A stretch of 64,000 bases of DNA from Pseudorhizobium endolithicum (GTDB lineage: Bacteria > Pseudomonadota > Alphaproteobacteria > Rhizobiales > Rhizobiaceae): contig NZ_CABFWF030000013.1 in assembly GCF_902153245.2 (NCBI RefSeq), forward strand, positions 1 through 64,000. Reading direction: 5' to 3'. Numbering within the stretch: the stretch's first letter is position 1; each line of letters opens with the position of its first letter. Under the pieces are notes generated by a model, which saw only the letters and a list, made by a program, of their open reading frames with translations, was not told the DNA's origin and made no database searches. This document shows, one piece after another, positions 21,718-56,247 of the stretch. The translations under genes and the position numbers were made by a program.

Positions 21718-21743
21718 CGGTGGCTTGCTGTCAGGAGAATTCG

Positions 21744-23129
21744 ATGAGCGTAACGCTCAAGCTCTACAATACGCTGACCCGGGAAAAGGCCGAGTTCCGC
21801 CCGATCGATCCGAACAACGTGCGCATGTATGTGTGTGGTCCGACGGTTTATGATTATGCCCATATCGGCAATGCGCGGCCGGTGATCGTCTTCGACGTGC
21901 TCTACCGCCTGCTGCGCCACGTCTACGGGACGGATCAGGTCACCTATGCCCGCAACATCACCGACGTCGACGACAAGATCAACGCGCGCGCGCTGCGCGA
22001 CCATCCCGGCCTGCCGCTGAACGAGGCGATCCGGCTGGTCACCGAAAAGACCGAGACGCAGTTCCACGATGACGTGAAGGCGCTCGGCTGCCTGGAACCC
22101 AATGTCGAGCCTCGGGCGACCGACAACATCGCGCAGATGATCGAGATCATCGAGCGGCTGATTGTCAAGGGTCACGCCTACGTGGCCGAGGGCGAAGTGC
22201 TGTTCGACACGAAGTCGATGCGGGACTATGGCCAGTTGTCCAAACGTCCCCTCGACGAGCAACAGGCCGGCGCCAGGATCGCGGTCGACGCCCACAAGAA
22301 GAACCCCGGCGATTTCGTCCTGTGGAAGCTCTCCTCCCCCAACGAACCCGGCTGGGAGAGCCCCTGGGGGCGCGGCCGGCCCGGCTGGCACATCGAATGC
22401 TCCGCCATGAGCGGCCGCTATCTCGGCGAAGTCTTCGATATCCACGGCGGCGGGCTGGACCTGATCTTCCCGCACCACGAGAACGAGATTGCCCAATCGC
22501 GTTGCGCGCACGGCACCGAAGTAATGGCGAATGTCTGGATGCACAACGGCTTCGTGCAGGTCGAAGGCCGCAAGATGTCGAAGTCGGAAGGCAACTTCGT
22601 CACGATCTACGACCTGCTGCACACGGAGAAATTCGGCGGACGGCAGTGGCCGGGGGAGGTGCTGCGGCTCGCCATGCTGATGACGCACTACCGGGAGCCG
22701 ATCGATTTCTCCGTCAAACGGCTGGAGGAGGCAGAGCGCCTGCTTGCCAAGTGGCCGGTCCCGGATTCGCCGGAAGGCGAGCCGGATGCTGCCATCATCG
22801 AGACCCTCCGCGACGACCTCAACACGGTTGGCGCAGTGCAGGAACTGCATGCTTTGGCCCAGGCCGCCAAGGCCGATCCGGACAAGCTTCCCGCCTTCGC
22901 GGCGAGTGCTGCCCTGCTCGGCGTCCTGCCGAAGAAGACCGAGGTGGACGAGGCCGTCGCGTCCGCGGTGGATGCACTGGTCGAAATGCGGCTCGAAATG
23001 CTCAAGGCCAAGAACTTTGCCGAAGCAGACAAGATCCGCGATGATCTCTCCGCCAAGGGCATCCACCTCAAGGACGGCAAGGATCCCGCGACCGGCGGCC
23101 GGGTCACGACATGGGAGGTGAAGAGGTGA
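21744..23129 (+). CDS. cysS: Cysteinyl-tRNA synthetase
   Basis: Charges tRNA-Cys. The 461-residue class I synthetase has the zinc-binding and HIGH-type motif [15 protein letters not shown] (about residues 28-42), the zinc ligands in [10 protein letters not shown] and [14 protein letters not shown], and the KMSKS signature [17 protein letters not shown] ribosome site precedes ATG 21744. The leader upstream suggests regulation by tRNA charging. Its last bases overlap the following gene (GTGA). Confidence 0.97.
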
Positions 23130-53209: not shown

Positions 53210-54148
53210 TCAGCCCTTCGGGAATTCCAGCCCCATCTCGCGGAAGCGGGCCGGATCGTCGCCCCAGTTCTCGCGCACCTTCACGAACAGGAAGAGGTGC
53301 ACGGGCTGCTCGAGGATTTCCGACAGTTCCTTGCGCGCCGCCGTCGAGATAGCCTTGATCGCCTCTCCGCCCTTGCCGAGCGCGATCTTCTTCTGGCTTT
53401 CGCGCTCGACGTAGATCACCTGCTCGATGCGTACGGAGCCGTCCTTGCGCTCCTCCCACTTCTCCGTTTCGACGTGCGATGCGTAAGGAAGCTCCTGATG
53501 CAGGCGCAGGAAGAGCTTCTCGCGCGTGATCTCGGCCGCAAGCTGGCGCATGGGAAGGTCCGAGATCTGGTCCTCCGGATAGTACCAAGGCCCCTCCGGC
53601 AGGCGCTCGCCAAGGAAATCCATCAGGTCTTCGCAGCCCGACCCTGTCGTTGCGGAGATCATGAAGGTCCGCTCGAACTCGATCGCCTCGTTGGCGGCCG
53701 AGGTAAGCTTCAGCAGGTCTTCCGGCTTCACGCGGTCGATCTTGTTCAAGACGAGGATCTTCGGCTGCCTGACCTCCTTGAGGCCTTCCAGGATCGCTTC
53801 GGCATCGCCGCGCAGGCCGCGCTCGCTGTCGATCAGCAGCATGATCAGGTCGGCATCCTTGGCGCCGCCCCATGCGGACGTCACCATGGCGCGGTCCAGC
53901 CGCCGGCGCGGCTTGAAGATACCGGGTGTGTCCATGAACACGATCTGGGCATTGCCGTGGATCGCAATGCCCCGGACGATGGCGCGCGTCGTCTGGACCT
54001 TGTGGCTGACGATTGAGACCTTGGCGCCCACAAGCCGGTTCAGAAGCGTCGACTTGCCGGCATTGGTCGGTCCTATCAGCGCCACGAAGCCGGAGCGCGT
54101 CGCGGCTCCCTCTGTCCCGGCACCGGTCATGTTCTCGTTATCTGTCAT
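53210..54148 (-). CDS. era: GTPase Era
   Basis: Essential GTPase that binds 16S rRNA during small-subunit assembly. The 312-residue product has G1 GPTNAGKST, G3 FMDTPGIFKP, G4 LVLNKIDRV and SAK-type G5 ISATTGSG, then a C-terminal KH domain with RESQKKIALGKGGEAIKAIS. From ATG 54148 (MTDNENMTGAGTEG). It is 8 bases after rnc in the acpS-lepB-rnc-era run. Confidence 0.96.
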   Translation of the reverse strand: MTDNENMTGAGTEGAATRSGFVALIGPTNAGKSTLLNRLVGAKVSIVSHKVQTTRAIVRGIAIHGNAQIVFMDTPGIFKPRRRLDRAMVTSAWGGAKDADLIMLLIDSERGLRGDAEAILEGLKEVRQPKILVLNKIDRVKPEDLLKLTSAANEAIEFERTFMISATTGSGCEDLMDFLGERLPEGPWYYPEDQISDLPMRQLAAEITREKLFLRLHQELPYASHVETEKWEERKDGSVRIEQVIYVERESQKKIALGKGGEAIKAISTAARKELSEILEQPVHLFLFVKVRENWGDDPARFREMGLEFPKG

Positions 54149-54156
54149 GGTTCCAA

Positions 54157-54873
54157 TCAACCTTCGGCAGGGGCCTTCGGCCATATGCCTTCGCGTTCCA
54201 GCATTTTGGTGGCGGCCACCTGTTCCGCAGCCCGTTTCGAACGGTCGCTGCCCGTTTCCGGCGGCACGCCCTTCACCTCCACCGTGACGGTGAAGCGGGG
54301 ATCATGATCCGGTCCGCTCCGATCGTCGATCCGGTAGGACGGAGTGAGGCCGAATTTCGCATGGGCCCATTCCTGCAGCTCTGTCTTGGCGTCGCGGCGA
54401 GCACCATCGGCGCGGGTCGCGCGGTCCCGCCAGTTGCGGAGGATGAACCTGCGGGCAGGCTCCAGTCCACCGTCGAGATAGAGCGCCGCGATCAGGCTCT
54501 CCACCACGTCCGCCCGTACGTTCAGCATCCGCTTGCCCGTCAACTTCTTTACGTCCGAACCTGTCCGGATATAGCGGTGGAGCTCCAGTTCGTCGGCAAC
54601 CTGGGCACAGCTTTCCGCGCTCACCAACTGGTTCAACCGGACGGAGAGCTCCCCTTCGGTGGCAGTCCGGAAGGTCTGGAACAGCAGTTCCGCGACACAG
54701 AGGCCGAGAACGCGGTCTCCGAGAAATTCCAGCCGCTCGTAGTTAGGCCCTTTGGCCAATCCGGCACTCGCGTGGGTCAGAGCGCGATCGAGCCACTGCT
54801 GGTCGGCAAACCGGTGTCCGGTCAGTTCCTCAAGCTTCGACCTGTCGTCAGCCGAGAGCGCCTTCGCCTTCAT
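54157..54873 (-). CDS. rnc: Ribonuclease III
   Basis: Double-strand-specific RNase that processes rRNA precursors and regulates mRNAs. The 238-residue product has the catalytic signature ERLEFLGDRVLGLCVAE and the second acidic site VRADVVESLIAALYLDGG, followed by a dsRNA-binding domain (AKTELQEWAHAKFGLTPSYR onward). Its ATG directly follows the lepB TGA (TGAATG), so its translation is coupled to the end of lepB. The amber codon in lepB could therefore reduce it. Confidence 0.96.
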   Translation of the reverse strand: MKAKALSADDRSKLEELTGHRFADQQWLDRALTHASAGLAKGPNYERLEFLGDRVLGLCVAELLFQTFRTATEGELSVRLNQLVSAESCAQVADELELHRYIRTGSDVKKLTGKRMLNVRADVVESLIAALYLDGGLEPARRFILRNWRDRATRADGARRDAKTELQEWAHAKFGLTPSYRIDDRSGPDHDPRFTVTVEVKGVPPETGSDRSKRAAEQVAATKMLEREGIWPKAPAEG

Positions 54874-55620
54874 TCACTCGACACCCTTGAACAGGCGGTC
54901 CCAACGCATGTTCGCCGGCCACTTCCAGAACTCGCGGAAGGACGTGTCGTTGCCAACGGAGAAGAAGATGATGGAGGCGCGGCCGATCAGGTTCTCGGCG
55001 GGCACGAAGCCCACGTCAAAACGGCTGTCCAAGGAGTTGTCGCGGTTGTCGCCCATGAAGAAGTAGTGGCCTTCAGGCACGATGAATTCGCGGGTGTTGT
55101 CGCCGCGAGAATTCGGCACCTGGTCCAGCGTATCGAAGCTCACGCCGTTGTCCAGGGTCTCCCGATAGACGGGCACGTCGGCCCCTGGGTCAAGGCACTA
55201 GTCGGAGGTGAAAGCGCCGTTCGGCTGCCGCGGCACCGACTCCCCATTGATGGAAAGGACGCCGTCGGTGACCTGGATCCGGTCGCCCGGCAGGCCGATG
55301 ACGCGCTTGATATAGTCGACATCGGTATCGGTCGGCAGGCGGAAGACGATCACATCGCCGCGTTCCGGCTCGCTGCCGAAGATGCGCCCGTCGAAAAGAT
55401 CGGGCGAGAATGGCAGCGAATACTTCGAGTAGCCGTAGGCGAACTTGTTGACGAAGATGTAGTCGCCGACGAGCAGCGTCGGCATCATCGAACCCGACGG
55501 GATGGTGAAGGGCTGGAAGAAGACGGTGCGGATCACCATCGCCAGCAGCAGCGCCTGGATGATGACCTTGATGTTTTCCCAGAGGGCGCTCTCGTGCTTC
55601 TTGTCGGCTCTGTCGGACAC
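54874..55620 (-). pseudogene. lepB: Signal peptidase I, interrupted by an in-frame amber codon
   Basis: Inner-membrane enzyme that removes signal peptides; normally essential. The 249-codon frame (GTG start) has the membrane anchor ALLLAMVIRTVFFQPF, catalytic Ser44 in FTIPSGSMMPTLLVGDY and Lys105 in DVDYIKRVIGLPGD, then TAG at codon 141 (minus strand of 55198-55200), then in the same frame CLDPGADVPVYRETLDNGVS and the essential GHYFFMGDNRDNSLDSR box. Nothing else is damaged, and both flanks read as intact LepB, so a single base (for example a Tyr codon TAT/TAC to TAG) explains it. It may be a sequencing error, a recent mutation with another lepB copy, or readthrough. An internal GTG at 55176 with AGGGG in front could restart translation and preserve coupling to rnc. 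Confidence 0.9.
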
Positions 55621-55697: not shown

Positions 55698-56102
55698 TCA
55701 ATCCGCCACGGGCCTGGCTTCGATCACCACGAAGGCCTGGGCATAGGGGTATTCATCGGTAATCGTAACGTGGATCAGGGGCTCATGGCCGGCGGGCATC
55801 AGGGATGCGAGCATCAGCCCTGCCCCGCCCGTCAGAGCCATGGTCGGCTTTCCGCTCGGGAGGTTGACGACACCCATGTCCTTCCAGAACACACCCTGAG
55901 CCAGGCCCGTCCCGAGCGCCTTGGAACACGCCTCCTTCGCCGCGAACCGCTTCGCATAGGACGCCGCGCGGTTGCGCCGGCGATCGGACTTGGCTCTCTC
56001 GATTTCGGTGAAGCAGCGCCGGGTGAAGCGCTCGCCGAAGCGTTCCAGCGATTTCTCGATGCGACGGATGTCGATCAGGTCGCTTCCCATTCCGATGATC
56101 AT
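55698..56102 (-). CDS. acpS: Holo-[acyl-carrier-protein] synthase
   Basis: Transfers 4'-phosphopantetheine from CoA to acyl carrier protein. The 134-residue product has the signature [20 protein letters not shown] with the magnesium Asp, and [14 protein letters not shown] with the second acidic ligand. ATG 56102 was chosen over an upstream frame of 28 residues without family match. It precedes lepB by 77 bases. Confidence 0.95.
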
Positions 56103-56247
56103 GGCCCCTCCTCTCCGGGAGGGTCCCGGCGTCTTCGGATGCTTCAGGCCTCTGAATTGAGCATTTGCAGGCGCCGCGTCAAGCACCCACCTCAGGAGAA
56201 ACCCTTTCGGGCGTCACCCAATGACACCGGCCCGAGGTCAGGACGTA

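Follow-up and report, generated by a model that had tools for sequence, protein, structure and literature searches.

A single in-frame TAG codon in the signal peptidase I gene of Pseudorhizobium endolithicum: consensus error or very recent nonsense mutation?

The lepB frame and its interruption

The window, that is, the whole stretch of DNA analysed here, comprises 64,000 nt of Pseudorhizobium endolithicum (NZ_CABFWF030000013.1, positions 1-64,000), and its numbering is followed throughout this work. The gene lepB, coding for signal peptidase I (SPase I), lies on the minus strand at 54874..55620 (248 codons plus TGA, with a GTG start), and its frame is interrupted only once; indeed, the translation contains exactly one internal stop, the TAG of codon 141 (55198..55200, minus strand). 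The surrounding genes are carried by the same strand: acpS (holo-ACP synthase, 55698..56186) is located upstream of lepB, whereas rnc (RNase III, 54157..54873; TIGR02191, 223 bits) and era (GTPase, 53210..54184) are found downstream, acpS and era being recognized by their family models. As the earlier note on this DNA had pointed out, rnc begins immediately after the TGA of lepB, at 54873; since the same TGA-ATG junction is found, identical, in the relative G002, the lepB-rnc junction of the window is an ordinary one.

When the TAG is read through, the frame matches the signal peptidase I profile along its length, both with TIGR02227 (174 bits, against a cut-off of 47; residues 17-222) and with PF10502 (189 bits; residues 14-220). 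Both matches cross the TAG, and the open frame on either side of it is therefore not due to chance. The catalytic residues Ser44 (55489..55491, minus strand, within the motif IPSGSMMPT) and Lys105 (55306..55308, minus strand, within YIKR) are encoded upstream of the stop, and the GDNRDNS box (codons 190-196, 55033..55053, minus strand) is encoded downstream of it; all of them fall in invariant columns in an alignment of 41 sequences. Translation, profile matches and alignments thus bear out the earlier description of an otherwise intact lepB having an amber codon at position 141, with the two catalytic residues before it and the GDNRDNS box after it in the same frame.

The order of the catalytic boxes, the family match over the full length and the acpS-lepB-rnc-era neighbourhood are all features that the window gene shares with signal peptidase I (LepB; PF10502, TIGR02227; E. 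coli 1T7D/1B12). It differs in the TAG of codon 141 and in the adjacent codon 142 (TGC, Cys; 55195..55197, minus strand), neither of which occurs in 99 distinct relatives. Moreover, the TAG separates the Lys box from GDNRDNS, and the catalytic Ser and Lys and the boxes B-E, as written, therefore share one frame but not one chain. Residues 28-116 and 166-243 of LepB, which include Ser44, Lys105 and GDNRDNS, could be aligned to the solved E. coli enzyme, and codon 141 falls within residues 117-165, a stretch that HMMER left unaligned. The predicted structure of the protein is poor (mean pLDDT of 45), and no inference was drawn from the model.

Distribution of the stop and selection on the frame beyond it

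The set of relatives consisted of 139 lepB-bearing loci (30 from the genus search, the best 80 of 570 confirmed and 29 more), corresponding to 99 distinct sequences and overlapping with the genomes of the genus. An internal stop in lepB was found in none of the 99 distinct relatives. Codon 141 specifies Tyr in 95 of them and Asp in the remaining 4, and codon 142 specifies R, S, K, A, Q or G and never Cys; together, the TAG and Cys142 involve two adjacent bases never found in relatives. Altogether, residues never found in relatives occur at three positions of the window LepB (128, 141 and 142, the last two being adjacent), and the relatives themselves carry from 0 to 5 such unshared residues each, codon 141 excluded. 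A frameshift in place of a stop was also considered and rejected, since the 12 nearest relatives align without gaps over codons 136-155.

The same picture was obtained on whole genomes. LepB is present in 57 out of 57 genomes of the genus, and the stop is absent from the main lepB of the 56 other than that of P. endolithicum, which has the only stopped best hit; the genome G013 possesses a partial extra LepB homologue with stops, and its main LepB is intact. The search in the wider family covered 121 genomes, 120 of which gave a match, and two of them (that of P. endolithicum and G044) were already in the genus set; on the basis of the best hits, among the matches listed, lepB is intact in 118 of the 119 further genomes, the other one (85% complete) having no match. 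Hence, the TAG is peculiar to the window genome among all the genomes examined. A stop conserved in relatives, which would be the mark of programmed readthrough, was found in none of the 99 distinct relatives, of the 56 genomes of the genus and of the 118 of the family; since the TAG occurs in no examined relative, no evolutionary persistence can be shown.

The nearest named relative of the window lepB is that of Neorhizobium xiangyangii T786 (L033), with an identity of 94% at the protein and 87% at the DNA level. Over codons 143-248, the dN/dS values of the window against L033, L114, L115 and L017 were 0.059, 0.032, 0.060 and 0.062, respectively; the values between relatives over the same part of lepB range from 0.014 to 0.035, those of the window (0.032-0.062) being somewhat higher. 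Judging from these ratios, the lepB codons past the TAG are still under purifying selection. The base changes found only in the window are unevenly distributed: in the comparison with three relatives there are 0 non-synonymous and 6 synonymous changes 5' of the TAG, and 6 and 6, respectively, from codon 142 onward; with six relatives, the corresponding figures are 0 and 1 before the TAG and 6 and 3 after it. Two of the six non-synonymous bases represent one Ser-to-Ser codon change at position 216, and therefore four amino acids are changed (142, 152, 162 and 217). We did not accept the excess of amino-acid changes after the TAG as a sign of relaxed selection, given that the imbalance between the two sides has a one-sided probability of about 0.12 (hand calculation) and that the branch ranks are unremarkable. 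Indeed, in a tree of 100 sequences the 3' protein branch of the window is the 18th longest (the 26th without codon 142), which is not extreme, and the 3' DNA branch is the 16th (the 18th without codon 142); on the 5' side the protein branch has almost no length (rank 96), and the DNA branch is the 42nd. In addition, three of the four changes that occurred in the window lineage after the TAG led to residues used by other relatives, against a random expectation of 13% (98/749; p about 0.008, by hand arithmetic). We read these data as suggesting that a full-length LepB was selected until very recently, or still is now, a modest relaxation being possible. The relaxed selection that would follow the lesion in a pseudogene was not detected, and a very recent loss would leave no trace of it.

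Signal peptidase genes and decoding of UAG in the genome

The activity of LepB is reported to be essential for bacterial viability on the basis of work on E. coli (PMC10269814), which implies that a true null should not grow; as for rhizobia specifically, we found no citable report on lepB essentiality in the literature searched. The earlier note had suggested that the lesion might be covered by a second lepB, an idea that the search of the genome does not support. In the draft of P. endolithicum (4.19 Mb in 20 contigs, 99.99% complete), PF10502 matches two genes only, lepB itself and a gene on contig C20, and the latter codes for a conjugative TraF (NF010412, 278 bits), whose score with the SPase I model is 26 bits, below the cut-off of 47. 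The intact paralogue that would cover for a pseudogene was thus not found in this draft, where TraF is the only match besides lepB.

The ability of the cell to decode UAG was analysed through the tRNA gene set, in which 43 tRNAs were found by Rfam and their anticodons read by ARAGORN. None of the 43 has the anticodon CTA, and the amber-suppressor tRNA previously envisaged is not among them. The tRNA-Ile(GAT) and tRNA-Ala(TGC) were also absent, which implies that some tRNA genes, apparently few, are missing from the draft and that the list is nearly, not fully, complete. These two tRNAs are usually encoded within rRNA operons, and the missing copies probably sit in rRNA operons that were not assembled. 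In the course of this survey two tRNA-Ser(CGA) genes were observed, neither of which reads UAG: one of 90 bases (C20:14155-14244, locus L186), close to the end of the contig, 14.8 kb in length, which also harbors the TraF gene, and one of 87 bases on contig C14. The former may mark a mobile element.

RF1 and the ribosomal proteins S4, S5 and S12 do not reveal a suppressor background, which we rejected. The RF1 gene has no internal stop and keeps the GGQ motif. RF1 and the ribosomal protein S4 were compared with those of 13 relatives, and S5 and S12 with those of 12 (8 or 7 of the genus, respectively, and 5 of the order, the nearest two, G002 and G018, lying outside the set). The residues found only in P. 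endolithicum are 4 in RF1, 4 in S4, 2 in S5 and 0 in S12; in these 12-13 relatives none of them falls at a constant site, the sole one at a near-constant site being D288E of RF1 (12 of 13 relatives agree), which is outside GGQ.

Nor is there any sign of a genome-wide reassignment of TAG. This codon terminates 33 of the 165 genes predicted in 204 kb, and when 1.004 Mb of the genome was scanned by coding signature, 34 same-frame stops were flagged, 7 of them being TAG. In four of the seven an ATG occurs no more than four codons away, and these resemble gene junctions; two others gave no hit in Pfam, and only in lepB was a domain shown to extend across the stop. The other 27 candidates were judged from the listing alone, except for one TGA case, in which a different protein lies on each side. 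TAG is thus neither absent as a terminator nor found inside many genes, and, with RF1 open and no CTA tRNA, nothing suggests that it has been reassigned; it behaves as an ordinary stop in this genome. The likeness to the known amber decoding systems (suppressor tRNA, pyrrolysine) is the identity of the codon in lepB, the lack of a CTA tRNA among the 43 and the ordinary use of TAG as a terminator being the differences.

Possible origins of the stop

There is exactly one stop in lepB, no examined relative shares it, the gene is conserved from end to end, and neither a paralogue nor a suppressor was found in the draft. A unique, unshared stop in a conserved frame, for which no decoder was found, is most probably either a consensus error or a nonsense mutation of very recent date; the sequence data favour these two, without telling them apart, and such a stop in a single-copy, normally essential gene whose frame is under selection is what an error would produce and also what a mutation only a few generations old would look like. 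We lean towards the error, as a bet and not as a demonstration, and consider it somewhat more probable than not that the TAG is not a real feature. According to this reading, the window would contain an ordinary lepB, present in a single copy in a Neorhizobium-like bacterium, and a false base in codon 141 of the deposited sequence would have arisen at the consensus level (by sequencing, assembly or a mixed colony); in the living strain one frame would yield normal signal peptidase I of full length, and rnc and era would be translated as they are in relatives. The isolation of the stop (0 of 99 distinct relatives, with 56 genomes of the genus and 118 of 119 of the family lacking it) supports the error, as do the presence of TraF as the only other candidate in a genome whose LepB should be indispensable (PMC10269814), the purifying selection on codons 143-248 together with the 18th rank out of 100 of the 3' protein branch, and the failure to find a means of reading UAG (no CTA among 43 tRNAs, RF1 open, TAG ending 33 of 165 genes). 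Among the options raised in the earlier note, the second lepB, the suppressor tRNA and the two-part enzyme lose ground on these data, while the sequencing error, the recent lesion and natural readthrough remain.

If the stop is real, the least implausible account, which we nevertheless consider doubtful, is a very recent nonsense mutation whose leaky readthrough by near-cognate tRNAs yields enough LepB; no evolved device would then be involved, and reversion or loss of the mutation would be expected. The intact and conserved frame after the TAG fits this idea, and published work provides precedents for it: in-frame stops in genes with dN/dS below 1 are reported to be widespread and mostly short-lived in bacteria (PMC7918605), and reporters in E. 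coli revealed frequent readthrough, in the order TGA > TAG > TAA (PMC11126739). Like the sporadic in-frame stops described by Belinky et al. (2021, PMC7918605), the lepB TAG is a single stop with a conserved frame on both sides and a low dN/dS; that study, however, focused on stops present in at least two species in order to minimise artefacts, a filter that the lepB TAG, found in a single genome, does not pass. The same reporter study associated changes of the downstream region towards T with less readthrough (PMC11126739), and the base following the lepB TAG is indeed T, which argues against efficient leakage; the stretch after it is not T-rich as a whole. The absence of a suppressor tRNA and the lack of changes in RF1, S4, S5 and S12 at sites constant in the 12-13 relatives compared also weigh against leakage. 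The stronger idea that the TAG is fixed in the species, that LepB reaches its full length only via regular readthrough, and that SPase I, and through coupling also RNase III and Era, are tied to the amber decoding rate appears very improbable to us. An even smaller probability is assigned to a programmed or adaptive readthrough, with the TAG maintained as a dimmer lowering LepB, and perhaps RNase III and Era, at a set decoding rate. A down-regulation via in-frame stops has been proposed (PMC7918605), and the frame past the TAG is conserved; on the other hand, none of the 43 tRNAs would decode the codon, and lepB is the only one of the 7 TAG candidates in 1.004 Mb with a domain across the stop.

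It is also conceivable that a real stop is covered by something that the assembly lacks, such as a second lepB or a suppressor tRNA, carried by an unassembled stretch or a lost plasmid, or a bypass of SPase I. A draft in 20 contigs without tRNA-Ile(GAT) and tRNA-Ala(TGC) leaves room for such a cover, which is unlikely all the same: the genome is 99.99% complete with one LepB, the score of TraF with the SPase I model is poor (26 bits vs a cut-off of 47), and the 3' part of the gene does not exhibit the clear relaxation that would be permitted if a second copy had stood in for a long time. Lastly, the earlier note had proposed a two-part enzyme, in which residues 1-140 and a chain restarted at the GTG of codon 149 (55174..55176, minus strand), seven codons (21 bases) past the TAG, would assemble into an active peptidase. 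The ribosome-binding score of this GTG is usable, its predicted pairing to the 16S tail being -5.7 kcal/mol, equal to that of the lepB start. Nevertheless, the codon specifies the conserved Val149, which is Val in 105 of the 108 relative loci counted out of the 139 (31 loci on the other strand were left out), and a strongly hydrophobic segment is missing from the restarted chain (the highest Kyte-Doolittle mean over 19 residues is 1.17, vs 2.13 before the TAG). The active site of LepB works outside the membrane, facing the periplasm; the second half would thus have no visible way over the membrane, and the two halves would be left on opposite sides of it. On the grounds of topology we regard the two-part enzyme as nearly excluded.

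Two sets of observations, Cys142 and the clean surroundings of the gene, are the reason why the consensus error is not rated higher. A one-base slip leaves both oddities, the TAG and Cys142, unexplained, and an error affecting two bases would be less usual. Besides, the higher 3' dN/dS of the window compared with relatives and its 5' protein branch near zero would fit a slightly older real stop as well. As to the surroundings, counterparts with an identity of at least 60% were found in the 204 kb for 58 of the 100 genes taken from 120 kb of G002 and for 42 of the 60 taken from 73 kb of G018, and among these 58 and 42 orthologues lepB is the only gene stopped inside a conserved part; the other stops fall in the first 22 alignment columns, with an identity of 29-50% before them, ahead of likely starts. 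The cleanness of the compared stretches weakens the consensus error as an explanation and favours the recent mutation with leakage. A cluster of errors from a badly filled gap was rejected and lends no support to the error: five unusual bases occur within 39 around codon 141, the five listed near relatives have 4-5, and 11 of 99 relatives have at least 5, so that such bases are no denser than in near relatives. A chimaera with another locus was also discarded, the 19-base stretch around the stop matching the genome exactly at a single place and with 3 mismatches at one other; a reversed-pattern control gave 5.

If the TAG is real, lepB would provide a naturally occurring example of an enzyme, essential in E. 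coli, that rests on readthrough in a single-copy gene, and a clean setting in which to determine the level of readthrough sufficient for life. On the present evidence, the case is mainly a caution about lone, unshared stops in single-copy, normally essential genes with a conserved frame.

Concerning the assembly itself, a run of 10 N at C13:78826-78835 of the P. endolithicum genome (G000), about 23 kb from lepB, represents a scaffold join and reveals that the contig was scaffolded. In the comparison with G002, moreover, the counterpart of a gene of 555 residues, at 21720-23126 of the window, has no equivalent of some 70 residues (query 420-488), the frame being the same on both sides; either these residues were deleted in frame or the sequence varies too much there to be aligned.
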